Source: a virus. Taken from it: a stretch of DNA of 55,938 bases. The stretch is taken from the IMG/VR virus record IMGVR_UViG_3300025098_000053, positions 1 to 55,938 of that record. One strand, given 5' to 3'. The position numbers and the translations under genes are program-made. The notes beneath the pieces were generated by a model that was not told the origin of the DNA, did not search any database, and was given only the letters and a program-made list of their open reading frames with translations. Of this stretch, positions 1,743 to 48,794 are shown in pieces. Each line of letters opens with the position of its first letter. Position 1 is the first letter of the stretch.

Positions 1743-2024
1743 ATGGAAGAAGAAAAGCAAATCGCCCCAGAGCCTATTGAAGAAGAAGTTGTTCATCCCA
1801 CATGCGACAATTGCCAATGTGAAGAAGGTGATCCGCCATGCCAGCCGCGAAAGAAGCGTAAGTATGTTCGAAAGGATCCTAATAAGAAGATAACACGAAA
1901 GAGATCTCCTGAACATAATGAAAAGATTGCTGCTGCGCTTCGTGGTCGAACATTGGATCCAGCGCATCGTGATGCAATTGCGCAATCGATGATTGGTAAT
2001 TCCAATAGAAACGGGGCAAAATAA
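1743..2024 (+). CDS. NUMOD3-like small DNA-binding protein
   Basis: 93 residues. The N-terminal half is acidic with CDNCQCEEGDPPC, a possible metal site, followed by a basic linker (KKRKYVRKDPNKK). Residues about 53-88 read RSPEHNEKIAAALRGR then LDPAHRDAIAQSMIGN, which matches the tandem pattern of NUMOD3 modules, the DNA-binding helices usually found attached to GIY-YIG or HNH homing endonucleases. No nuclease domain is present. The gene is coupled by TAATG to a 38-residue ORF and then to terL, so a role in DNA recognition for packaging is possible but inferred. The start has AAAGGAT upstream. Confidence 0.65.
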   Translation: MEEEKQIAPEPIEEEVVHPTCDNCQCEEGDPPCQPRKKRKYVRKDPNKKITRKRSPEHNEKIAAALRGRTLDPAHRDAIAQSMIGNSNRNGAK

Positions 2025-2140
2025 TGTGTGGCCAAGTTGTTGTCGATCACGTCCTGCAAATGTGTTATGTTATCCCTTGTGAATATCTGCACGTTTCTTA
2101 TAATTATTTTGAGCGCTTGGTCGAGTTAGGAATTGTGTAA
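2024..2140 (+). CDS. Short coupled ORF before terL (38 aa)
   Basis: A 38-codon ORF that begins MCGQVVVDHVLQMCYV and ends RLVELGIV. Its ATG overlaps the stop of the NUMOD3-like gene and its stop overlaps the terL ATG, both as TAATG, so it fills the gap exactly and is almost certainly translated. It also carries the likely terL ribosome-binding site (TTAGGA). Function unknown; three Cys and a hydrophobic helix are visible. Confidence 0.6.
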   Translation: MCGQVVVDHVLQMCYVIPCEYLHVSYNYFERLVELGIV

Positions 2141-3834
2141 TGAATAAAGATGCATTAAATAAATTAATTGGATCCGCAGAAGGCCGGAGAGCTTTGTCAG
2201 CAGCTTCCCCGATTTTCTTTGATAAATACTATTTAAAAATGACGCCAGCAAAACATAGATCAAACTGGTTAAACACAATTGATCGTTTGGAAAGTGAGGC
2301 AGCATCAAGTGGGCAAAAAAAGAAATTGCTCGTGCTAAGCCCCAGAAGCCATGGGAAATCGTTGCTAAGTGCATCATTTGCTCTGAGGAAGATATGTTTG
2401 AATAGAAATGTATCTATCCTATTTATCAGCGCATCTGCAGGGCAGGCAGAAAAGAGAGTTCGTTTGATAAAAACCTTTATGGATTCTCCAACTGTGCAAG
2501 AAGATTGGTGTGGTGAAGGGTGTATTCCGTTTGAAGGAGGATCCGCTAAATTTACAGCAACACAAATATATGTGCAGCGTGATGGTAAATCTGTTGATCC
2601 AACAATAGAAGCTGTTGGCGCTGGTGGATCTATAACTGGGGCGCACGTTGATATTGTTATTATTGACGACCTTGAAGATGAGCGTACATGTGCATCTGCA
2701 GGTGTTCGACAAAAAACAAGAGATTGGCTTGCAGCAACTGTAACACCTATATTAAATCAGGGTGGATTGATGTTGGTTATTGGAACGAGAAAAAGTGGGG
2801 ATGATATTTATCATCACATGATTAATGATCCAACGTTTGAAGTTATACAAGAGCCTGCAATAATAAAATGGCCCACAACATATGAATATATTGTTGAACG
2901 CATGGAAAGTGGTCGTGAAGTTTTAAAAGATGTTGTTACTTCAGGGGATGAAGAAGTTCTTTGGCCAGAGTTTCGTGATATAAAATATTTATTAATGGAA
3001 CGTCGTTCAATGGGTTCAACATTATTCGAAAGAGAAATGCAAAATAAAATTATTGCTGCTGAAGATAGTGTTATTAAATCTGATTGGATTGCAGAATGTA
3101 AAACAAGCACATACACGTTCGATATGTATCCACCGCAGTTAGATTTATCAAAATGTGTTGTTGCACAAGGATGGGATCTTGCAATCGAATCTGATGCAAA
3201 GAAAGCAGCTAAAAAGGATAGTGATTTCACAGTGGGATGGACGATTGCAAAGGATACAAAAACAGGAATATATTGGGTATTAGATGTTTTCAGGGATCGA
3301 GGTTTATCACAGCAAAAAATAATGGATGAAATTGTAAAGATGTATAATAAACATAAGGATTATGTAAGAAGAGTTGCTGTGGAAAAGAATTCATTTGGTG
3401 CGTTGCATGTTGATGCACTGATGAAACATACAGATTTACCTGTAAGAGGTGTAATAATGAGCAAGAAAAATTCTCTTAAAATAAAAATACACAGATTAGC
3501 TGTTTTATTTGAGAATAAACTTGTTCGTTTTCCCTATATGGATGAAAACTGTCGTCAAATAATGAATGCTTTTGAGGAAGAAGCTATTTCTTGGCCATTT
3601 GCAAAACATGATGATACTTTAACTTCCTTAAAATGGGCAATCGAAGAAGTGGATTCAAATTCAGGAAACTATTCTGTAAGTTTTGGCACACAAATGTATG
3701 GTGCAGATGGAGAGTTATCTGAAGGTAAAGGTGATCAAAAAACTATGGATGATTTCTGGATGCAGTTTAGAGCATCTGATGATTGGGAAGAACATGCAGA
3801 TCCAAATTACTTTGGAGATAAAGATAAAAAATAA
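2140..3834 (+). CDS. terL: Terminase large subunit
   Basis: 564 residues, the ATP-driven motor and nuclease that packages DNA into the prohead through the portal. The N-terminal ATPase has a Walker A-like SPRSHGKS at about 67-74 and a Walker B VIIDDLED at about 173-180. The C-terminal RNase H-like nuclease shows GWDLAIESD near 344, VEKNSFG near 414 and KHDDTLTS near 488, which supply the acidic metal ligands. Length and order fit the T4 gp17 type. No small terminase gene lies beside it in the usual form; candidates are the NUMOD3-like gene upstream and the HTH protein at 51998-52696. Confidence 0.93.
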   Translation: MNKDALNKLIGSAEGRRALSAASPIFFDKYYLKMTPAKHRSNWLNTIDRLESEAASSGQKKKLLVLSPRSHGKSLLSASFALRKICLNRNVSILFISASAGQAEKRVRLIKTFMDSPTVQEDWCGEGCIPFEGGSAKFTATQIYVQRDGKSVDPTIEAVGAGGSITGAHVDIVIIDDLEDERTCASAGVRQKTRDWLAATVTPILNQGGLMLVIGTRKSGDDIYHHMINDPTFEVIQEPAIIKWPTTYEYIVERMESGREVLKDVVTSGDEEVLWPEFRDIKYLLMERRSMGSTLFEREMQNKIIAAEDSVIKSDWIAECKTSTYTFDMYPPQLDLSKCVVAQGWDLAIESDAKKAAKKDSDFTVGWTIAKDTKTGIYWVLDVFRDRGLSQQKIMDEIVKMYNKHKDYVRRVAVEKNSFGALHVDALMKHTDLPVRGVIMSKKNSLKIKIHRLAVLFENKLVRFPYMDENCRQIMNAFEEEAISWPFAKHDDTLTSLKWAIEEVDSNSGNYSVSFGTQMYGADGELSEGKGDQKTMDDFWMQFRASDDWEEHADPNYFGDKDKK

Positions 3835-3853
3835 CTTAATTAATTAACTTGGA

Positions 3854-4002
3854 TTTAAGTTCTAAGTATATGATATGATTATATTTTATTTAAGTTAATT
3901 AAGTTAATGAATTAAGTTGTTTATTTAAGTTGATTTAAGTTAGTTGATTTAAGTTCGAATTAAGTTCAAGTTAAATAATAAAGTTATTAAGTTATTTAAG
4001 TT
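3854..4002. repeat. TTAAGTT repeat array 1
   Basis: About ten exact copies of TTAAGTT on the plus strand in 150 bp, many extended to TTTAAGTT, with irregular spacing. One copy reads TTAAGTTCTAAGTATAT and recurs in the array at 4621. No ORF is visible. The array directly follows terL. Direct repeats of one short motif in AT-rich non-coding DNA resemble iterons or a clustered protein-binding site. Confidence 0.7.
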
Positions 4003-4016
4003 CGATTTGCAAATAT

Positions 4017-4043
4017 AAAAAAACCTTAGCTTTTGGGCCAAGG
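4017..4043 (-). terminator. Intrinsic terminator, leftward
   Basis: On the minus strand a 7-bp stem GCCAAGG-type arm (4043-4037) pairs with 4030-4024, with one G-U pair, followed by seven T (4023-4017). It ends the short leftward transcript of the 4164-4382 gene before the terL end. Confidence 0.8.
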
Positions 4044-4069
4044 TTGAAATAATATTAGTAAGTATAGAA

Positions 4070-4165
4070 TTAATCTCTGTTTGTTTGTTTTTTATAATCC
4101 ATATGTTTTAATGTATTGTTGCAGAAAATTAAACAGAGATTAACGTCGTGTTTGTGGCGTATATT
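4070..4165. other. 13-bp inverted repeat with CAGAGATTAACGTCG element
   Basis: TTAATCTCTGTTT (4070-4082) and AAACAGAGATTAA (4131-4143) form a perfect 13-bp inverted repeat with a 48-base loop. The right arm runs on into CGTCGTG (4144-4150), and TATATT follows at 4160. The same CAGRGATYAACGTCG core occurs at 12419, 38931 and 45185. The element lies just downstream of the 4164-4382 leftward gene. Confidence 0.6.
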
Positions 4166-4382
4166 ATGAAGCCTTCGATTGAACCTCCTCTTGCTTAGGT
4201 GTTTGATCAACAGCTTCTGGAACAAATAATTTGATTGTTTCAAAAATTAAAGATGCATCCTGAAGGGAAAAGATCCCAGCTCTTTGAGATGCTTCTGCTG
4301 CATTAATCAAGATTTGAACACCTTGAATTTGCTGAAGGTTTAATGTTAGAGTTGGCTCAACTGTTTCTTTTTCATCACTCAT
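4164..4382 (-). CDS. Hypothetical small phage protein (72 aa)
   Basis: 72 residues with a charged N-terminus, a helical centre (QGVQILINAAEASQRAG then LQDASLIFETIKLF) and a polar tail. The centre recalls small helical proteins common next to structural genes in aquatic phages, but I cannot name a family. The start has GGAGAAAG upstream. It is the only leftward gene between terL and the KTSC gene, with its own terminator at 4017-4043 and a promoter-like CTATATATCAGTATT just upstream. Confidence 0.65.
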   Translation of the reverse strand: MSDEKETVEPTLTLNLQQIQGVQILINAAEASQRAGIFSLQDASLIFETIKLFVPEAVDQTPKQEEVQSKAS

Positions 4383-4421: not shown

Positions 4422-4468
4422 GTTAGTTTATTATATTATAGTTTCTATTTACTAATAGATAATAAAAA

Positions 4469-4555
4469 ACAGATCTATATCTAAAGTGTTCTGTAATTAT
4501 TATATTCTATTCTTAAGATAGCTGATATTAGTAAGTATTTAGTATATAGATCTGT
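4469..4555. repeat. 12-bp perfect inverted repeat
   Basis: ACAGATCTATAT (4469-4480) and ATATAGATCTGT (4544-4555) are perfect inverted copies 63 bp apart in the 587-bp gap between the leftward 4164-4382 gene and the rightward KTSC gene. No ORF is present. It could be a cruciform or a paired operator. Confidence 0.5.
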
Positions 4556-4620
4556 TATTATTAAGTATGTATTAACATATCAATTATCTGAAACTTTTAC
4601 AAATTAATTTTTTATTTTAT

Positions 4621-4708
4621 TTAAGTTAATTAAGTTATTTAAGTTCTAAGTATATAATATTATTTAAGTTTATCTTAAGTTGAGGTACGAAACTTAAATA
4701 AATCTTAA
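4621..4708. repeat. TTAAGTT repeat array 2 with 28-bp core
   Basis: Five direct TTAAGTT copies, then a palindromic unit TTAAGTTGAGGTACGAAACT (4675 onward) continuing to TTAAATAAATCTTAA. The first 28 bases of this unit (4675-4702) recur exactly at 46032-46059, 41 kb away. The gap 4383-4969 holds no gene. Confidence 0.75.
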
Positions 4709-4911: not shown

Positions 4912-4940
4912 TTTACAAAATTACTGTATCTTCATATAAT
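4912..4940 (+). promoter_or_regulatory. Sigma70-like promoter for the KTSC gene and fibres
   Basis: TTTACA (4912-4917), 17-bp spacer, TATAAT (4935-4940), about 30 bp before the ATG at 4970. The -35 and the following AAA match the promoter at 54455-54483. A second TATAAT at 4885-4890 lies upstream. Confidence 0.7.
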
Positions 4941-4969: not shown

Positions 4970-5332
4970 ATGAAATTAACTAAAGATTTTCAATTAAAGA
5001 TAAAGAAACATTTAAACAAAAAGTTTGATGTTGTTCAATCATCTTTATTACAAGAAACATATTATGATCAAGAGGAAGAAATACTTTTAGTAAAGTTTGC
5101 AAATGCAGATGATATTTACTTGTATAATCTTCCTTTATCTGTGTATAAATCTTTTTGTATGAGTGAAAGTAAAGGAAGTTTCTTTTCCCGGAAAATAAAA
5201 AAGAACTATCCTTGGTGTAAAATTGAAAACGACATCGTTCAAAAAGCGCAGCCTTCTGATAATATTTCAGGAGATTCCTCGCTTGAGAGTTTTTTGGATC
5301 AAACCCAAAACCATGGTTTCACAAAAATTTAA
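4970..5332 (+). CDS. KTSC domain protein
   Basis: 120 residues. Residues about 20-85 match the KTSC domain: QSSLLQETYYDQEEEILLVK, then a beta strand, YLYNLPLSVYKSF, then the signature SKGSFFSRKIKKNYPW. This small domain is common in phage and bacterial proteins, alone or fused to nucleases or synthetases; its biochemical role is not established. The tail after about residue 88 is polar. First gene of the rightward block that leads into the fibre genes, with a strong promoter upstream. Confidence 0.75.
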   Translation: MKLTKDFQLKIKKHLNKKFDVVQSSLLQETYYDQEEEILLVKFANADDIYLYNLPLSVYKSFCMSESKGSFFSRKIKKNYPWCKIENDIVQKAQPSDNISGDSSLESFLDQTQNHGFTKI

Positions 5333-6103: not shown

Positions 6104-9100
6104 ATGTCGATTAAATACGCAAAAATATCACAAGGCACGAAGATCGAGCCTGGGTTGATACAAGTTGCGACAATTGCAGAAGCTTTAGCCGGAACAAATG
6201 AGTTCAAAGCTATCACACCTGCTTTGCTTGAATCAAAACTTGCACAACTCATTGATAGCGCACCGGGCGCTCTCGATACTTTAAACGAACTTGCTGCAGC
6301 AATTAATGATGATGCTAATTTTTCAACAACTATTGCAGCACAAATAACAAATTTACAAAATCAAATCAGCAGCCTAAGTGGTGGTGGAGCATCAAATCAG
6401 ATTGAGCTTGATAACACACAATCAGCTGCAGGTTTAGCAACAAACGGCGATTATATTCAAGATAGCACAACAAACTTTCTTGGATCAGCAACATCATTGG
6501 CAAATGCCGATTTTCGTTTAGATGCACAAATCAAAACCAATGCTGATGATATTGCATCATTAGGAAATGGAAGTTTTGCTGCACTTCAAGCAGAAGTTGA
6601 TGCTGTTGAAGGTGGAGTTGGATTATCAACTGCAGGCGCACATGTTGCAAGAAGTGGTACAAACTATTTAGATAGTGCAACCACGATTGCTGGAGAGATC
6701 ACTTTATTAGATACACAGGTTGATACCAATGAAAGTGCAATAAGTACAAACGCCAGCAATCTGAGCACCGAGATAACAAATAGAACATCTGGTGATACAG
6801 CGCTTCAAACTTTGGCAGATGCTCATGAATCAGCAATTGGTTTAAGCACTGCTGGCGCTTATGAAAGTCGTTCTGGCACAAACTTCCTCGATTCTGCTTC
6901 AAGCATTGTTGGTGAAATTACTGCACTCGATACTGCTGTTCAAGCAAATGTTTCTTCATTGGCAACAAAAGCAACTGCAACTGCATTATCAGCACTCGAT
7001 ACTCGCGTATCGGCTGCAGAATCAGATATTGATGCAGAAGAAGTTAAATCAGCAGATTTTGAATCACGTCTTACAACTCTTGAAGGTGGATCATCAACAG
7101 TTGCATTACAAAATGAGTTAGATGCAACACAAGCTGGTGCAGGATTAAATTCGAATGGTTCATATACTGCAATAAGTGGCGCAACATTTGCAACTGGAGC
7201 AACTTTAAAAGCTGCTGTAACACAATTAGATACACAGTTAAATACAACTCAAACTGATTTAGATACAGCAGAATCTTCCATATCAAGCCTTTCAAGTTCA
7301 TTAAGTGGAAAAGCCAATACATCTGTTGTAACAGCATTGGCAGCAACTGTTGATGCAGGAGAAGCGGCTGTTGGATTAGAAACAGATGGATCATTTAGTG
7401 CAAACTCAAGTGGAAACTTTATATCTTCAGCAACTACGGTTCGTGGAGAAATCAATGCATTAGATACACAACTTCAAACAACTGTTGGAGATCTTTCAAA
7501 CCTTTCATCAACAGTAACTACTCTCTCAAGTGCCGGATCTACTAACGCAACAGAGATCACAGCATTAGAGAATGAAGTTGATGCAACACAAGCTGGTGCC
7601 GGGTTGGGAACAACTGGTGCTTATGGTGCAAACAGTGGAAGTAATTACATTGGATCTGCAACTTCATTAAAAGATGCTGATGATAAACTTGATGCACAAA
7701 TTAAAACTAATGAAGATGATATTGCAACAAACACAGCAAGTATTGCAACTAATACATCAGCAATTGCAAGTAAAGCAGCAAGCTCTACAACTACAGCAAT
7801 TCAAACTGAAGTTGATGCTATTGAAACAGCTGTTGGATTAGATTCTAACGGTGGTATAACATATACATCAACTCCAAGCTTATTTAGTGCATCTGATTCA
7901 TTAAAAGTTGCTGTTGAAACATTAGATGGTGAAATTGCGACTAACGCTGGTGATATACTTGGTAATGCAAATCAAATTACTGCACAAATTGCTTTAAACA
8001 ATACACAGGAAACTGCGATAGGTTTATCATCAACAGGAACATATGTTTCTCGCTCTGGCACAAACTATCTTGATTCAGCTTCTTCAATTGTTGGAGAGAT
8101 AACCGCACTTGATACACAAGTTAAAGCTAACTTCGATTCATTAGCAACAAAGGCAACTGCAATTCAATTATCAGCTCTCGATCTTAGAGTTACTAATGCT
8201 GAAGGTGATATTGATGATTTAGAAACTTTATCAACTACTCATGAAACTAACATTGGTTTAGATTCTGATGGTGGATATACAGCAATTTCTGGTGCAAACT
8301 ATGCAACAAGTGGAACAAGTTTAAAAGCTGCTATTACTCAATTAGATACACAGCTTAAAACTACTCAAGATGAAGTTGATGCAGAAGAAACAGCAAGAGC
8401 TGCTGCAGATACTACATTAACTACTGCAATAAATCAAGTTGAAACATCTGTTGGATTAAATGCAAATGGTACGTTCCAAACATATAGTGGATCAAATTAT
8501 CTTGATTCTGCTGCAACAGTTCGCGCAGCAACATTAGCATTAGATACACAACTTGGAACAACTCAAGGTGATTTGGATACAGAAGAAGCTGCAAGAGCTG
8601 CTGCTGATGCAACATTAACTACTGCAGTTAATACCGTTGAAGCATCTGTTGGTTTAGAGGCAGATGGATCATTAAGTATAACAGGAACAAACTTTATCAA
8701 TGGCCAAGCAACTGTTGTTGCGGCTGTTAAGGTTTTAGATACAAACCAGAACTTGATAAATGATATTCAAGGAAATATCAGAACTTCAGTTGGTTTGCAA
8801 ACAGCAGGAACTAAGGCAAATTATGCAAACACAAACTTCATTGGAAATAGTGATAGTTTAAAAGCTGCCATTGAAGCTTTGGATGCACAAGTTAAAACTA
8901 ATGAAACAGATATTTCAAGCGTTAGTGGTGGAAGTATTTCTGCACTACAAACTGAAGTTGATGCAATTGAAACTGCAGCAGGTTTAAGTTCTTCTGGGGC
9001 ATATGTTGCACACAGTGGCACTAACTTTATGGATAGTGCTTCTACAATTCCAGCTGCTCGTGAAGCATTAGATACAAAACTTAAAACTGTTGCTGATGAT

Positions 9101-9391
9101 CTTGATACTGCGGAAGCAGCAATCGTAAGTAATGATACAGATATCGCTTCATTACAAGTTCGTGGTGGTGGTTTATTTGAACAAGATGATGATCATGTTA
9201 TCTTTAACGATGCACCAAAATTCAGAGGCCACTTTGGCCCATTCCAAGTTGATTTACTTGCAGCCTTAGCAACTTTCCCAACTACATTTGATTTTGAGTT
9301 TTACGGAGAAAAAGCTGAGCGTGAAGGAGATCGACACTTTCTTGTTAATGGCGACGGAGATATTACATTCACAGGCGTATCAACCAATTAA
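6104..9391 (+). CDS. Giant repeat fibre protein (1095 aa)
   Basis: Contains about 13 imperfect repeats of 70-90 residues. Each has a stretch like DAxExAxGL, then GxYxxxSGxNYLxSA, then AITALDTQLKTT and a coiled-coil segment. Repeats 3-5 and 8-10 resemble each other in order, a sign of block duplication. The C-terminal 80 residues (from about GGGLFEQDDD) are unique and aromatic, probably the tip or a trimerisation domain. Trimeric coiled-coil fibres of this kind form tail or head fibres. Long antisense and frame-shifted ORFs over it are by-products of the repeats. RBS AGGAGG precedes the ATG. Confidence 0.8.
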   Translation: MSIKYAKISQGTKIEPGLIQVATIAEALAGTNEFKAITPALLESKLAQLIDSAPGALDTLNELAAAINDDANFSTTIAAQITNLQNQISSLSGGGASNQIELDNTQSAAGLATNGDYIQDSTTNFLGSATSLANADFRLDAQIKTNADDIASLGNGSFAALQAEVDAVEGGVGLSTAGAHVARSGTNYLDSATTIAGEITLLDTQVDTNESAISTNASNLSTEITNRTSGDTALQTLADAHESAIGLSTAGAYESRSGTNFLDSASSIVGEITALDTAVQANVSSLATKATATALSALDTRVSAAESDIDAEEVKSADFESRLTTLEGGSSTVALQNELDATQAGAGLNSNGSYTAISGATFATGATLKAAVTQLDTQLNTTQTDLDTAESSISSLSSSLSGKANTSVVTALAATVDAGEAAVGLETDGSFSANSSGNFISSATTVRGEINALDTQLQTTVGDLSNLSSTVTTLSSAGSTNATEITALENEVDATQAGAGLGTTGAYGANSGSNYIGSATSLKDADDKLDAQIKTNEDDIATNTASIATNTSAIASKAASSTTTAIQTEVDAIETAVGLDSNGGITYTSTPSLFSASDSLKVAVETLDGEIATNAGDILGNANQITAQIALNNTQETAIGLSSTGTYVSRSGTNYLDSASSIVGEITALDTQVKANFDSLATKATAIQLSALDLRVTNAEGDIDDLETLSTTHETNIGLDSDGGYTAISGANYATSGTSLKAAITQLDTQLKTTQDEVDAEETARAAADTTLTTAINQVETSVGLNANGTFQTYSGSNYLDSAATVRAATLALDTQLGTTQGDLDTEEAARAAADATLTTAVNTVEASVGLEADGSLSITGTNFINGQATVVAAVKVLDTNQNLINDIQGNIRTSVGLQTAGTKANYANTNFIGNSDSLKAAIEALDAQVKTNETDISSVSGGSISALQTEVDAIETAAGLSSSGAYVAHSGTNFMDSASTIPAAREALDTKLKTVADDLDTAEAAIVSNDTDIASLQVRGGGLFEQDDDHVIFNDAPKFRGHFGPFQVDLLAALATFPTTFDFEFYGEKAEREGDRHFLVNGDGDITFTGVSTN

Positions 9392-9864: not shown

Positions 9865-12342
9865 ATGAGCGCAATTAAACCTAATACAAACCTTGGGCAT
9901 GATCTCGGTACAACTTCCCTAAAATGGGGTGTTCTACACGCAGGTGATGTACAAACAGCAACATTAACCGCTTCAGGAAATGTTGAAATTTCTGGTAATC
10001 TCACCGTAACTGGAACTCAAACTTCATTGCAGGTAACTACTGTTGAAGCTGAAGATCCCTTGATCAAACTTGCACGTGGAAACAGTGCTGATTCGCTTGA
10101 TATTGGTTTTTATGGCCAATCAAATGATGGATCAGATAAATTCCACGGTATTGCACGTGATGCAGATGATGGAAAATTCTATGCATTTAAAGATCTTGCA
10201 TCTGAGCCAACAACTGTTATGGGCACTTTAAGCGGATCAAACAAAGCTTCAATCGTTGCTAACGTTGAAGGTGCGCTAACTGGTAATGCAACAACTGCAA
10301 CAACTCTTGCAACTGGAAGAAACTTCGGAATCACTTCAGGCCCTGTTCGTGCTGCTAATATAAGCTTCGACGGATCCGGAAACGTTGCCTTTACTTCAAC
10401 AATTGCTGATGATCAAATTACTGACGACATGCTTGCAGGATCTATTTCAAACGGAAACCTTGCAAACAGCTCAATTACAATAACTGCTGGCAATGGCCTT
10501 TCTGGTGGCGGATCAGTTGATCTTGGTGGAACTGTGGCACTCGCTGTTGGTGTTGATGATTCTTCAATTGAACTTGATAGTGATCAATTACGTGTTAAAG
10601 CAACAGGTATTACTAATGCAATGCTTGCTGGATCAATTGCTGATTCAAAACTTTCAACAATCTCTACTTCTGATAAAGTAAGTGGTTCTGCGGTTCAACT
10701 TGCAACAGCATCTGCTATTGAAGATAACAGTGGTTTGCGTCTTAAGGCAGCAACTGCTGGTGATGGCCTTGCATTAGGAGCAACACAAATACTTTCAGTA
10801 AATGTTGATGATAGTTCAATCGAAACAAACTCAGACGCATTGCGAGTTAAAGCAGGCGGTATTACTGATACAATGCTTGCAGGCGGTATTTCAAATGGCA
10901 AGCTAACAAACAGTGCAGTTTCATTTGGTGGCGTAAGCGTTTCACTTGGTGGAGCAAATGCACAACCTGCTTTTGATCTTACAAATGCTACTGATTATCC
11001 TACTTCAAGCTTAACTGGATCAATTACTAACGCACAACTTGCTGGATCAATTGCAAATGAGAAGTTAGCTAACTCTGGTATCGAACTTAAACTTGCTGGA
11101 TCTTCACAAGAAACAATCGCTCTTGGATCATTTATTGATATTGCAGGTACATCAAATGAAATCGACGTTACTTATGCAAGTGGCGATAACAAATATACCT
11201 TTAGCTTGCCTTCAACAATTTCAGCAGCACTTAATGGTAATGCTTCATCAGCAAATGCTCTTAACTCTGCTGTAAATGTTGGTATTACTGCTGGCCCAGT
11301 TCGCGCAGCAAACGTAAGTTTTGATGGTTCTGGAGCAATTGCTCTTACATCATCTATCGCTGATGATCAAATTACCAATGATATGCTTGCTAACCCAGGC
11401 CTTACTCTTAAACTTGGTGGAGTTTCTCAAGAAACTATCGAGTTAGGCAGTGATTTTAATATCGCTGGTACCTCAAATGAAGTTGATGTTGCATATGCTA
11501 CAGGAAGTAATACATATACCTTTAGCTTACCTTCAACCATTAATGCTGCAACTTCTGGAAATGCAGCAACTGCAACAGCTTTGGCATCTGCAGTAAATAT
11601 CGGTATTACTGCTGGCCCAGTTAGAGCTGCTAATATTAGTTTTGATGGTTCTGGCGCTGTTGCAATGACGAGTTCAATCGCTGATGAGCAAATCACAAAC
11701 GACATGCTTGTTAGTGATTCAATTACATTTGCTGGTGGAAGTGGTTCTCAAGCTCTTCAACTTGGTGATACATTTACTATTAATGGAACATCAAATGAGA
11801 TTGAAACAGCAGTATCTGGCGATGCAATTACAATTGGTTTGCCAAGTTCTGTAAATATCACATCAAATCTTGACGTTGGTGGTAACCTTACACTTTCCGG
11901 CGCGGCTGTTATTACTGGTAATATTACAGCTTCTGGCCAGTTAAGTGCTTCTGGTGCTAATATCTCATTCGCTGATACTTTGATCGAGTTTGGTGTTAAT
12001 AATACTGGTGCTAAAGATCACGGATTTTATTCACAACGTTCATCAGGCGCATTCTGCGGATTTGTTTTCGATGAATCAGATGATAAATTCAAGGTATTCA
12101 CAACTGATACAGAGCCTACATCAACAGTTGATACAAGCCAAGGTGGATTTAGCAAGGGTGATTTCGAGGCAAATACAATTGCTGCAGCTTCAACATTATC
12201 AGGTGCATTGAGAAGTACTGGATCTGCTCCAGCTTCTGTAAGCGCAACTGGTACAGCTGGTGATATTCGCTTTGATTCAAACAAGCTTTATGTTTGTATC
12301 TCAAGTAATTCTTGGAAGGCAGTTGATTTAAGCACATTCTAA
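9865..12342 (+). CDS. Fibre-like structural protein (825 aa)
   Basis: The N-terminal part has SGNLTVTGTQTSLQVTTVEA, then DPLIKLARGN and DIGFYGQ, a module common in fibre or appendage proteins of marine myoviruses. It is followed by repeated units with ITAGPVRAANISFDGSGA, SSIADDQITNDML and NEVDVAYATGSNTYTFSLPS. The N-terminal GFYGQ module recurs near the C-terminus (HGFYSQRSSGAFCGFVFDES), so the ends are duplicated. Composition is Ala/Ser/Thr/Gly, typical of extended beta fibres. RBS AGGAG upstream. Confidence 0.75.
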   Translation: MSAIKPNTNLGHDLGTTSLKWGVLHAGDVQTATLTASGNVEISGNLTVTGTQTSLQVTTVEAEDPLIKLARGNSADSLDIGFYGQSNDGSDKFHGIARDADDGKFYAFKDLASEPTTVMGTLSGSNKASIVANVEGALTGNATTATTLATGRNFGITSGPVRAANISFDGSGNVAFTSTIADDQITDDMLAGSISNGNLANSSITITAGNGLSGGGSVDLGGTVALAVGVDDSSIELDSDQLRVKATGITNAMLAGSIADSKLSTISTSDKVSGSAVQLATASAIEDNSGLRLKAATAGDGLALGATQILSVNVDDSSIETNSDALRVKAGGITDTMLAGGISNGKLTNSAVSFGGVSVSLGGANAQPAFDLTNATDYPTSSLTGSITNAQLAGSIANEKLANSGIELKLAGSSQETIALGSFIDIAGTSNEIDVTYASGDNKYTFSLPSTISAALNGNASSANALNSAVNVGITAGPVRAANVSFDGSGAIALTSSIADDQITNDMLANPGLTLKLGGVSQETIELGSDFNIAGTSNEVDVAYATGSNTYTFSLPSTINAATSGNAATATALASAVNIGITAGPVRAANISFDGSGAVAMTSSIADEQITNDMLVSDSITFAGGSGSQALQLGDTFTINGTSNEIETAVSGDAITIGLPSSVNITSNLDVGGNLTLSGAAVITGNITASGQLSASGANISFADTLIEFGVNNTGAKDHGFYSQRSSGAFCGFVFDESDDKFKVFTTDTEPTSTVDTSQGGFSKGDFEANTIAAASTLSGALRSTGSAPASVSATGTAGDIRFDSNKLYVCISSNSWKAVDLSTF

Positions 12343-41093: not shown

Positions 41094-41374
41094 TGATGAA
41101 TAAGGAAAAAAAAGTGCTTTCGCCAATGCAAAGCAAAAAGTTTTTGGCTTATCTTTTCGCTGATATAGGCTGGAAAGCTATTATTTTATATCAGTTAATG
41201 CACCTTAAAGGAAAATTGGAGTTAAATGAACTCACATTCCTTATAACAACTGTTATTACAGCAGGTGTAATACAAATCGGGTATATTTTAGGGCAAAACA
41301 GCCTTGATAAATACCTAAGTTCAGCTGTGGAGATATTTGATAGGGACGAAAAGCCTCCTAAAAAAGAGGATTAA
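41093..41374 (+). CDS. Holin-like membrane protein (93 aa)
   Basis: 93 residues with two membrane segments: about 15-34 (FLAYLFADIGWKAIILYQLM) and 45-66 (LTFLITTVITAGVIQIGYIL), a short loop between and charged tails (KPPKKED). Size and topology fit a class II holin, the protein that times lysis by opening the inner membrane. The endolysin is 5 kb away (46323), so the pairing is not by adjacency. Its ATG overlaps the stop of the tail gene (TAATG). Confidence 0.55.
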   Translation: MMNKEKKVLSPMQSKKFLAYLFADIGWKAIILYQLMHLKGKLELNELTFLITTVITAGVIQIGYILGQNSLDKYLSSAVEIFDRDEKPPKKED

Positions 41375-45294: not shown

Positions 45295-45825
45295 TCATAT
45301 CATTCTCTCCAATTTCTGTAATAGATCTTCGTGTGTTTCAAAACAAGGTGAAGCACGTTCTTTGTTGTAAAATTTAAAAGCTTTATCTTTGTTGATAAAT
45401 CCACAAACTTCATATGTATTTCTATTAAGTTTCTTTACCAAACAATAAATATCAGAAGCATATTTTTTTCTATGCCTTGGGATTAATAAATGTGCATGAA
45501 ACAATGTTTTAGTTGTTTTAACTTCAAGAGAATGTTTATTTCCATTCTTATCCTCAAAAACAAAATCCCATTTATCATCTTTTGATTTTCTGCTTTGAAC
45601 ATCTCTTGTTGAATCATCAAGAATTTTATAATTATATTTTTCTAAAAACTTCTTGATTACCCACTCACCTGATAAACCTAAAACATCACGTTTGTGTGTT
45701 TTTGGTGCAGGTTTATTTCCCCAAGAGTATTGCCTTGAGTTCTTCTTTGCATTTTCAAATCTTTGTTTTGCTAAAGAATCAATTTCTTTAAGCTCTGATG
45801 TCGTAAGATTTATTAGTAATCTCAT
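45295..45825 (-). CDS. PD-(D/E)xK-like nuclease
   Basis: 176 residues. SGEWVIKKFLEKYNYKILDD (helix with Glu), then KWDFVFEDKNGNKHSLEVKT with the Asp...Glu-x-Lys pattern, is the core of restriction-endonuclease-fold enzymes. The C-terminal part (YEVCGFINKDKAFKFYNKE) is beta-rich. It may act as a phage recombination, packaging or host-DNA nuclease; substrate is not shown. It has no clear Shine-Dalgarno sequence but a promoter-like TATATTTCAGTATATAA 40-56 bp upstream. First gene of the leftward group. Confidence 0.6.
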   Translation of the reverse strand: MRLLINLTTSELKEIDSLAKQRFENAKKNSRQYSWGNKPAPKTHKRDVLGLSGEWVIKKFLEKYNYKILDDSTRDVQSRKSKDDKWDFVFEDKNGNKHSLEVKTTKTLFHAHLLIPRHRKKYASDIYCLVKKLNRNTYEVCGFINKDKAFKFYNKERASPCFETHEDLLQKLERMI

Positions 45826-45881: not shown

Positions 45882-45972
45882 ATAACTATTGTTATTTCTT
45901 AATATTAAGTATGTAGTTACTTTAGTTTTTATATAAATTAATTTAAATTATTTTATTTAATCTGAAAATGTA

Positions 45973-46101
45973 TTTAAGTTATTTAAGTTAAACTTTAAGT
46001 TATTTAAGTTAATTGTTTATATTAAGTTGTTTTAAGTTGAGGTACGAAACTTAAATAAAATCTTAATTAGTATTAATAACTTCTGATGATGAATTTAAGT
46101 T
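45973..46101. repeat. TTAAGTT repeat array 3 with 28-bp core
   Basis: Seven direct TTAAGTT copies plus one inverted copy in 130 bp, including the 28-bp core 46032-46059, identical to 4675-4702. A diverged half-copy (TTTAAGTTGAGTGTAACGAA) follows at 46094. No gene lies in 45826-46322. Confidence 0.75.
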
Positions 46102-46169
46102 GAGTGTAACGAAATCTTAAATGAAGAAGAAGAAGGGATATAGGGTAGTAGAAGAAGTAGGTGGCCGGG

Positions 46170-46179
46170 CGCGTACGCG
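46170..46179. repeat. GC-rich palindrome CGCGTACGCG
   Basis: A perfect 10-bp palindrome within GTGGCCGGGCGCGTACGCGT (46161-46180), a short GC-rich island in otherwise very AT-rich DNA, 70 bp after repeat array 3. Possible origin, nicking or regulator site. Confidence 0.5.
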
Positions 46180-46281
46180 TAGGGAAGCAACTTTTCAATC
46201 TCTCTTCAAAACCCTTATGTTTTATATAATAACAAATTTACAATGCAATTTACAAAATAAAAAAATAAATAGTTAAAATAC

Positions 46282-46322: not shown

Positions 46323-47087
46323 ATGTTTGAGTTAGTAAATAAAAACAAAGAGTATGTTAAACAACTTCAGGAAGAAATTGGAGTGCATGCTGACGGAATA
46401 TTTGGCAAGGGATCTTTGAAAGCTGCGGAGGAATATTATGGTGGCCCAGTAATTGCACATATGGGTAAAATTGTACCAATCCCAGGAGCATCATATGTTG
46501 TTGATCACAAACATTCATTATGGCAGCTGCCAGATGGCACCAGAAATCATCGAATGCGTAAAGGTGATGCTTCATCCATATGCGTTCATTGGGGTGGCTT
46601 AAACGTAAAACATTGTTATATGGTGTTTTTTGGTGCAAAGGATCGTCATGTATCTTCACACTTTGGAATTGGATGGGATCCAGTTGAAGAAAGATATGAA
46701 ATTGATCAATGGCTTGATACTGGTGTAGTTGCATATCATGCAGGAAAGTTTAATGGTTATTCAATAGGGATTGATATTACACAACATCCATCACCTAAAT
46801 ACCTCAAACATACACAAAAGTTTTATCCTGATGCACAAGTAATACCCAATCCTTCAGGGAGAGGCCCAAGTGAATGTGTTGATTTAGATCCAGAAATTGC
46901 AAGAATCGCATCTGAGTTTATTGAGGATTTAAGAAAGATTGCAGAATTGGATCATAAACCTAAATGTTTGGATGAAGAAGTATATTCTGTAAAAGATGCA
47001 TCAAAGTTTTCCGTTGTTGGGCATCACAATTTAAGTAAAAATAAATGGGATTGTGCTCCTTGGATGGAAGAATTATATGGAAATTAA
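46323..47087 (+). CDS. Endolysin: N-acetylmuramoyl-L-alanine amidase
   Basis: 254 residues. Residues about 10-40 (VKQLQEEIGVHADGIFGKGS) are a peptidoglycan-binding helix bundle. Residues 80-250 form an amidase_2 domain: CVHW with zinc ligand H89, SSHFGIGWD, VVAYHAGKFNGYSIGID, and a C-terminal GHHNLSKNKWDCAPW with a second His and a Cys ligand. The enzyme cuts the bond between muramic acid and the peptide, releasing virions. No signal peptide, so export needs a holin. First rightward gene after the divergent control region. Confidence 0.85.
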   Translation: MFELVNKNKEYVKQLQEEIGVHADGIFGKGSLKAAEEYYGGPVIAHMGKIVPIPGASYVVDHKHSLWQLPDGTRNHRMRKGDASSICVHWGGLNVKHCYMVFFGAKDRHVSSHFGIGWDPVEERYEIDQWLDTGVVAYHAGKFNGYSIGIDITQHPSPKYLKHTQKFYPDAQVIPNPSGRGPSECVDLDPEIARIASEFIEDLRKIAELDHKPKCLDEEVYSVKDASKFSVVGHHNLSKNKWDCAPWMEELYGN

Positions 47088-47293: not shown

Positions 47294-48025
47294 ATGTGTA
47301 ACAATACTTTCGTTAAAACAGAAAAACAATTCCAAGATGTAGTTGAACTAATGGGCGACCTCAATCCTGATCATACACCAGAAGAAGTGCTTGTGATGGC
47401 AACCAATTATACAGTTTATTTCAACAGTGATAGATCAAACCGTGTATCACATACAGATGTTACAACACCTTGCCAATTTCATTTAAAAGAAGATGGAACT
47501 CCATTTTCAATTGGCGCACAAAAAGCACAAGCCAGAAGAAATCTTGAGGCACATGTTGGAATGGCAAAACCTTTTGGAGCAAGATGGCATGTTGCACATC
47601 TTTGTGAAAACTGCAGCAGTGCAAAACAAATCTGTGTTAATCCAGAACATCTTTATTTCGCAACTCCAAAAGAGAATCACCATGATGTTGATCGTTTAGG
47701 TAATCCAACAGGTGCTTTAAAATCTGCTGTAACTAATAAGGCAAATAAAACTGGATGTTTTCATAATCCAAAAGTTCGTCATAAAGCACAAAAGCTTGGT
47801 GGTATTGCTGGATCAAGATCTCAAATGAAATCTGGGAATCACAATACAATGAAGAAAGATAAAACATGCAAATACTGTTTCTCACAACATTCAGCATTCC
47901 ACATCAATCAACATGAAGCAAGATGTGCAAAGAAAAGAGGATTAGTATCTCATATGCCAAGAGCAACAAGAACAAATCCTAATCCGGAAATGATTTACTT
48001 TCCAGAAAATTTGTTAGCTTCATAA
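47294..48025 (+). CDS. HNH endonuclease
   Basis: 243 residues. The HNH core is WHVAHLCENCSSAKQICVNP followed by EHLYFATPKENHHDVDRLGN: His, a zinc Cys cluster, Asn-Pro-x-His and a distal His/Asn. The basic C-terminal part has a second Cys/His pattern (CKYCFSQHSAFHINQHEARC), a zinc finger likely for DNA binding. Free-standing HNH genes in phages are usually homing endonucleases that spread by cutting alleles without the gene. AAGGAG start; isolated transcription unit. Confidence 0.8.
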   Translation: MCNNTFVKTEKQFQDVVELMGDLNPDHTPEEVLVMATNYTVYFNSDRSNRVSHTDVTTPCQFHLKEDGTPFSIGAQKAQARRNLEAHVGMAKPFGARWHVAHLCENCSSAKQICVNPEHLYFATPKENHHDVDRLGNPTGALKSAVTNKANKTGCFHNPKVRHKAQKLGGIAGSRSQMKSGNHNTMKKDKTCKYCFSQHSAFHINQHEARCAKKRGLVSHMPRATRTNPNPEMIYFPENLLAS

Positions 48026-48233: not shown

Positions 48234-48755
48234 ATGATTTTAGCATTAGATATTTCAACAACAACAATTGGTGTTGCTCTGATAAATAACGGCAAAGTAA
48301 GTTCAATAAACTATATCAGTTTGAAGAAAACAAAAGATTTGATTGATAAAATTCAGGAAACAAGTGATTGGTTTGATAATGATCCAACATTTCAAAAAGT
48401 AAAATATAAAATTAAAGAAGTTCGTATCGAACAGTTTTTACAATCATTTAGAAAAGGCATGAGTTCTGCTGCAACAATTACAAAGTTGGCAGGATTTAAT
48501 ACAGCAGTTCAATACTTGATGTACGTTAAACTTTCTTTGCGTCCCAATATGATTGCCAGTAATGTTGCAAGGAAATCAATAGGGATTAAACTGGATAAAC
48601 AGAAAGATACAAAAGAACAAATCTGTGAATTCGTTCATCAGCATTATTATCCACTCCCAAGAAAGATTCTTAAAGGTGGCCCAAGGAAAGGGCAAGAAAC
48701 ATGGGCAGATCATGCAAATGATATTGCAGATGCCATTGTTATAGGTTTAAGTTAA
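48234..48755 (+). CDS. RuvC-like Holliday junction resolvase
   Basis: 173 residues, the usual size. RNase H-fold acidic residues: D6 in ILALDISTTTIGVAL, E66 in EVRIEQFLQSFRKG, and D159/D163/D166 in WADHANDIADAIVIG. It resolves branched DNA made during replication and recombination so that concatemers can be packaged. Together with the gp32-like gene at 49351 it marks the start of the DNA-metabolism region. The stop lies in a TTTAAGTT repeat. Confidence 0.8.
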   Translation: MILALDISTTTIGVALINNGKVSSINYISLKKTKDLIDKIQETSDWFDNDPTFQKVKYKIKEVRIEQFLQSFRKGMSSAATITKLAGFNTAVQYLMYVKLSLRPNMIASNVARKSIGIKLDKQKDTKEQICEFVHQHYYPLPRKILKGGPRKGQETWADHANDIADAIVIGLS

Positions 48756-48794
48756 ATCCAAGTTAAATCAACTTAAATAACTTAAATAACTTAA
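48746..48794. repeat. TTAAGTT repeat array 4 (mostly inverted)
   Basis: One direct TTTAAGTT (48746-48753) inside the end of the RuvC gene, one AAGTTAAA, and three inverted AACTTAA copies at 48770, 48779 and 48788. It lies exactly between the RuvC gene and the leftward gene at 48791 and spans both stops. Confidence 0.6.

Follow-up and report, generated by a model that had tools for sequence, protein, structure and literature searches.

The heptamer TTAAGTT is packed into four short stretches of a phage genome, two of which share a long exact core although they lie 41 kb apart, and this locus raises the question of what these arrays are for and what, if anything, binds to them. The window analyzed here is the entire IMG/VR virus record IMGVR_UViG_3300025098_000053 (55,938 bases), which is classed as linear and is thus probably a fragment of a larger genome. 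The record covers late-region genes of a contractile-tailed phage, namely those for TerL, portal, protease, major head protein, tail sheath and baseplate, for PhoH, for a RuvC-like resolvase and for an amidase-like endolysin. Isolate phages are only distantly related, with TerL and MCP matches of at most about 30% identity, and the comparison presented below relies on two IMG/VR relatives: IMGVR_UViG_3300025674_009487 (G001; 50.9 kb, TerL 86% identical) and IMGVR_UViG_3300035145_002778 (G002; 18.4 kb, TerL 83% identical). All three contigs are linear fragments. Two further records with near-identical MCPs (L033 and L035) end short of the array positions, phage records yielded 0 DNA matches to the 4.4-5.0 kb region, GTDB genomes searched with TerL and the core revealed neither host nor prophage, and Rfam and tRNA scans returned nothing. 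Between TerL and portal, two long proteins (6104-9391 and 9865-12342) contain degenerate internal repeats, the number of which, to judge from multiple cross-matches with the relatives, seems to differ among these phages.

All four of the TTAAGTT-packed sites described in the earlier note are present, with small corrections to their edges and to their description as intergenic. Array 1 (3833..4002, +) comprises 11 units, 10 direct and one inverted, at the convergent junction between the stop codon of TerL (2140..3834, +; phrog_38, E 1.6e-80) and the 3' end of a leftward gene encoding a 72-aa protein with no family match (4164..4382, -), which lies between arrays 1 and 2 and has counterparts at the same place in the relatives (46% and 38% identical). 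This array starts 21 bp to the left of the edge first assigned to it (3854), with the inverted unit at the TerL stop. Array 2 (4621..4697, +; 5 direct units and 1 inverted) occupies the gap from which the 72-aa gene and a gene for a KTSC-domain protein (4970..5332, +; PF13619, E 8.2e-12) diverge, the latter opening the rightward structural block. Array 3 (45974..46101, +; 7 direct units and 1 inverted) lies in the divergent gap between a leftward gene (45295-45825) and the amidase-like endolysin gene, the first gene past this array (46323..47087, +; phrog_1493, E 1.6e-4; Amidase_2 under the curated cut-off). Array 4 (48747..48794, -), with three units on the minus strand and one on the plus strand, marks the convergent junction between the RuvC-like resolvase gene (48234..48755, +; phrog_159, E 1.5e-4) and a 142-aa gene. 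The sites are hence mostly intergenic, as had been proposed, except that array 1 begins at the TerL stop codon and array 4 overlaps the terminal codons of both converging genes, the last codons of the RuvC-like gene, TTA AGT TAA (Leu-Ser-stop), falling within it. The gaps holding the arrays are 77-83% AT; a short GC-rich stretch containing GGCCGGGCGCGTACGCG (46159-46184) stands out in the otherwise AT-rich sequence between array 3 and the endolysin gene, and an HNH endonuclease-like gene (47294-48025; phrog_6254, E 7e-5) lies between the endolysin and RuvC-like genes.

The heptamer is strongly over-represented in the window, where it occurs 57 times against 17.0 +/- 4.2 expected from dinucleotide shuffles, none of 100 shuffles reaching 57. 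Its intergenic density (27 copies in 5.5 kb, or 4.9/kb) exceeds its coding density (30 copies in 50.4 kb, or 0.6/kb, with about 21 expected) eight-fold, which disposes of the possibility, raised in the earlier note, that the word might be equally frequent in coding DNA. It is also the top over-represented intergenic 7-mer under an order-2 model (29 observed, 6.4 expected) and ranks first of all 7-mers in local clustering over 200 bp in the window, G001 and G002, each counted separately. The core shared by arrays 2 and 3 was found in 0 of 84,980 GTDB bacterial and archaeal species genomes; the other objection anticipated in that note, occurrence of the core in unrelated host DNA, was thus not borne out. 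A literature search on the word TTAAGTT found nothing, and a loose triple-heptamer scan of IMG/VR returned 75 stretches; those inspected were in open frames (many showing the 15-bp period of pentapeptide-type repeats) or were tandem repeats of short period, and none was an irregularly spaced array comparable to these.

Constraint on the heptamer was assessed on 46 exact units from seven arrays in the three genomes. Spacing between units is irregular and mostly 9-14 bp, with a minimum pitch of 9 bp. Units with one mismatch number 25, of which 13 are TTAACTT, a word that can come from overlap with a neighboring unit read on the opposite strand; the remaining 12 are fewer than the roughly 18 obtained in array shuffles. 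Moving the word by one base lowers the count (to 28 and 21, from 46 for TTAAGTT), and there is a weak preference for AT preceding the unit. Because one-mismatch units are not in excess and shifted words are much rarer, TTAAGTT itself looks like the unit under constraint, and exact 7-mers with drifting spacers point to a sequence that is bound, not to a microsatellite in decay. A pitch of 9 bp is more frequent than any other (13 of 33 same-strand neighbors), as a degenerate mini-satellite arising neutrally through replication slippage might show, yet such an origin is barely credible and ranks last among the explanations considered, since decayed units are not in excess; the irregular spacing, the conservation of place in three genomes and the presence of a composite core at two loci also speak against it.

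The two core copies (4675..4702 and 46032..46059, both +; TTAAGTTGAGGTACGAAACTTAAATAAA) are identical over 28 bp, exactly as the earlier note had reported, and this is the longest string common to arrays 2 and 3. Each contains inverted 7-mers flanking GAGGTACGA. The description of the core as a palindrome holds for the arms, which form a 7-bp inverted repeat (TTAAGTT...AACTTAA; 8 bp at 46 kb), and fails for the 9-nt center GAGGTACGA, which is not itself palindromic. The second copy is embedded in an extended element (46021-46068) and is followed by a third, decayed copy (46094..46121, +; TTTAAGTTGAGtGTAaCGAAAtCTTAAA) carrying three single-base insertions relative to the core. Since the two divergent gaps are also related outside the core (4555-4708 and 45899-46066, 73% identity over 171 columns, partly of low complexity), a whole control module may have been duplicated between them. 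The distance from the end of the core to the next ATG is 268 bp for the KTSC gene and 264 bp for the endolysin gene, and about 280 bp in G001.

An array directly 3' of the TerL stop codon is kept in all three genomes, with 11 units in the window and 7 in each of the relatives. The numbers and positions of the units differ among these arrays, which have strings such as ATTTAAGTTCGAATTAAGTT in common, as expected of binding-site turnover in a retained array. As this is the only array seen in all three genomes and it adjoins the terminase gene in each, in the manner of a pac or cos site, it could be the packaging site of a small terminase, with the other arrays secondary. The usual place of TerS, immediately 5' of TerL, is occupied by a small basic protein of 93 aa (1743..2024, +; 70% identical in G001), which might then be that terminase; it has no TerS family match, however, and shows a weak likeness to homing endonucleases (phrog_314, E 0.017). 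A packaging function would explain array 1 alone; a total of four arrays spread across 45 kb, with cores duplicated at divergent promoters, is not what such a site would lead one to expect, and the contigs, being linear fragments, offer no genome ends to read. We consider this explanation decidedly unlikely.

The gap between the 72-aa and KTSC genes holds a single, exact core copy in G001, at the same place as the 4.6-kb copy of the window. The two gaps are collinear at 70% identity, and it is only in the opposite orientation that the core stretch matches strongly (89% over 62 bp), so that the G001 core is inverted relative to its flanking genes. Furthermore, the 48-bp element of G001 (41258-41305) is closer to the extended element at 46 kb in the window (46/48 identical) than to the window copy in the corresponding gap (38/48, ungapped). 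Given this inversion and this closer match to the 46-kb copy, the element may have been flipped, exchanged or gained separately between genomes, or the G001 assembly may be in error at the palindrome. Presence of the core at the same gap in inverted form also makes it likely that its function is independent of orientation, as is the case for operators. The direct units of array 2 at 4621-4645 are missing from the corresponding G001 position, and G002 has neither a core nor a TTAAGTT array in its KTSC gap, which counts against the explanation preferred below. In G002, AACTTAA words (2536-2690) extend into the start of the KTSC coding sequence, giving the impression of an array shifted into the gene. 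IMG/VR searches with the endolysin and RuvC-like genes found no relatives, and the comparison across genomes consequently covers the arrays of the TerL-KTSC region and not arrays 3 and 4.

These comparisons bear on two further explanations. The first is that the arrays are recombination seams, that is, short homologies used for the insertion or exchange of antisense cassettes (the 72-aa gene, the genes at 44.2-45.8 kb and the 142-aa gene), with arrays and core copying between loci. Leftward genes do adjoin arrays, the G001 core is flipped and more like the 46-kb copy than the one in its own gap as described, and long exact strings are common to arrays at different loci, including a 27-mer of array 4 (AATTAAGTTATTTAAGTTATTTAAGTT) that recurs identically in the TerL array of G001. 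Recombination of this kind would nonetheless leave exact heptamers amid drifting spacers unexplained, three gene-direction switch points have no array, and no sister genome lacking a cassette was found; we regard it as unlikely. The second is an element acting in RNA, in which UUAAGUU repeats in transcripts would be recognized at mRNA ends by a protein or a small RNA, and with which the sense orientation of the TerL-end arrays in all three genomes, save for one unit in the window, agrees. RNA folding is weak (z -1.7 to -1.9 for the core hairpin), favoring a site in DNA, and together with the inverted orientation of the G001 core relative to its genes this places an RNA-hairpin interpretation of the core low; arrays 2 and 3 are, moreover, probably upstream of promoters. 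An RNA-level role thus appears highly improbable.

Taken together, the arrays are conserved in a small phage lineage, and searches of the collections covered here did not find them elsewhere. The general proposal of the earlier note, that they are conserved, clustered protein-binding sites, gains support at the sequence level from conservation in the relatives, from exact heptamers separated by variable spacers, from non-coding enrichment and from the absence of the core from GTDB genomes.

Two features had gone unremarked in that note: the inversion of the core in a relative and the location of all arrays at switches of gene direction. The 55 called genes of the window define 54 junctions, 7 of which are direction switches and 47 co-directional, and arrays are present at 4 of the 7 switches and at 0 of the 47 co-directional junctions (hypergeometric p 1e-4, for a pattern noticed first and tested afterwards on mechanical gene calls that may have put one or two small genes in the wrong place). 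Gaps at switches are on the whole longer, making controls by gap length fairer; these are weaker and give p 0.007 when only co-directional gaps of at least 90 bp are considered and p 0.02 with weighting by intergenic length. Arrays 2 and 3, which contain the core, are at divergent gaps, and arrays 1 and 4, which lack it, are at convergent ones. The three switch points without an array count against a general operator or boundary function.

Sequences resembling transcription signals accompany some of these junctions. A hairpin and T run similar to an intrinsic terminator (4022..4045, -) separates the leftward 72-aa transcript from array 1, and similar sequences occur at the counterpart positions of G001 and G002. 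Upstream of the KTSC gene lies a sigma-70-like promoter (4912..4940, +; TTTACA-17-TATAAT, 11/12), a consensus match in a region where the total of such sites is at chance level. Across these AT-rich gaps, predicted promoters are no more numerous than chance would give, leaving no proven promoter against which to position the arrays, and this too weighs against the explanation preferred below. The leader of the 72-aa gene contains a long stem-loop followed by a T run (4460-4562, -; z -3.8), possibly an attenuator, with a comparable stem of changed sequence in G001 (z -2.8) and no significant folding of the G002 stretch tried (z 0.0). A recurrent intergenic motif, approximately ACAGAnnnnAACGTCGTGATnn with a near-constant center AACGTCGTG and not related to TTAAGTT, is present at 4142 (+), 12427 (+), 38942 (-) and 45197 (-) in the window, at 1086, 5015, 41766 and 44306 in G001 and at 1813 in G002; several of its copies can fold as hairpins, with differing stems (e.g., GGATCAacgtcgTGATCC and CAGAATttaacgtcgtgATTCTG).

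The specific suggestions of the earlier note, iterons or centromere-like sites, fared less well. Replication origins in which TTAAGTT serves as iterons for a phage initiator, in easily opened AT-rich DNA, would account for short direct repeats in gaps of 77-83% AT, as in plasmid and phage iteron origins, and two origins 41 kb apart would not be unprecedented, since large phages with multiple origins are known. Nevertheless, DnaA-like boxes are at chance level in the window (95 against 100 expected) and absent from the arrays, although such boxes need not accompany an origin that uses its own initiator. GC skew, which the earlier note had proposed as a check, does change along the window, and all of its shifts are explained by gene strand. 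The spacing is irregular and mostly short (9-14 bp, against a regular pitch of about 21 bp, close to two turns of the helix, for iterons), the sites number four, two of them at gene ends, and no initiator or Rep gene was recognized among the window proteins searched. An origin function is therefore doubtful.

Centromere-like sites for partition or condensation have a closer formal parallel in the heptad arrays of plasmids bound by small RHH proteins. The parS sites of pSM19035, bound by the RHH ParB protein omega, consist of 7-10 strictly consecutive WATCACW heptads, and at least four contiguous heptads without gaps are needed (PMC9499535). Like these, the phage arrays are made of short non-palindromic 7-bp units (4-11 per array), direct and inverted, clustered in several arrays of which two are in promoter regions (PMC9499535). 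Unlike them, the phage units are not contiguous, with a pitch of 9-14 bp rather than 7 bp, occur also at convergent gene ends and include a composite core. No ParA-like, ParB or other RHH partner was recognized among the window proteins tested, on a contig that is probably a fragment, and there is no sign of a plasmid-like state, making a centromere role very improbable.

The explanation we tentatively prefer, at somewhat less than even confidence, is that the arrays are lineage-specific platforms, serving as operators and boundaries, for one putative sequence-specific DNA-binding protein, probably phage-encoded. We infer from the sequence patterns that each heptamer would be a site or half-site of this protein and that clustering at 9-14 bp would allow cooperative occupancy, with consequences for transcription. 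The 48-60-bp core, with its two inverted heptamers around GAGGTACGA and outer arms, would then be a composite site of high affinity within divergent promoter regions. Once occupied, arrays would mark the ends of transcription units: those in divergent gaps as operators or upstream control regions of the structural and lysis blocks, and those in convergent gaps as boundaries or roadblocks separating colliding transcripts. Operator function alone leaves arrays 1 and 4, at 3' ends, unexplained, and the boundary idea is needed to accommodate them. No HTH or RHH regulator was recognized among the window proteins tested, which counts against this proposal; the 93-aa basic protein is a weak candidate for the DNA binder and the sole one in the window, and the binder would probably be encoded in the unsequenced remainder of the phage genome. 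A bolder extension, which we offer as a long shot, is a boundary code in which a phage protein coats the switch-point arrays and insulates the blocks of a lytic genome, with the composite core as an orientation-free element copying itself between boundaries.

Among known phage systems, a close comparison is with the operators and stoperators of Cluster A mycobacteriophages (L5 repressor). The L5 sites are more than 20 13-mers spread across the genome, with an orientation tied to transcription, and sites of the L5 type lose function when reversed (PMC9283540). In both systems asymmetric sites occur at promoters and in short spaces between genes (PMC9283540), but TTAAGTT forms dense local arrays, and the orientation of its core is not kept, the G001 copy being inverted; the TerL-end arrays are nearly all in the sense orientation. 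No repressor family match was found among the window proteins searched. The core also recalls another class of repeat. REP and REPIN-type elements are discrete intergenic imperfect palindromes of 50-60 bp found in varied places and orientations, and the core is alike in these respects; unlike them, it exists in only two or three copies tied to heptamer arrays, and no RAYT transposase was recognized in the window.

What is unusual among clustered phage binding sites is the placement of these arrays at switch points and the inverted core. With the three genomes, a natural set for comparison is at hand, as is an exact bait sequence with which to look for the putative binding protein. The usual view is that promoters, terminators and a few regulators set the order of gene expression in lytic tailed phages. 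If the preferred explanation is true, heptamer arrays restricted to switch points, together with a composite core that occurs in either orientation, would suggest an extra boundary or operator layer in the organization of these genomes.
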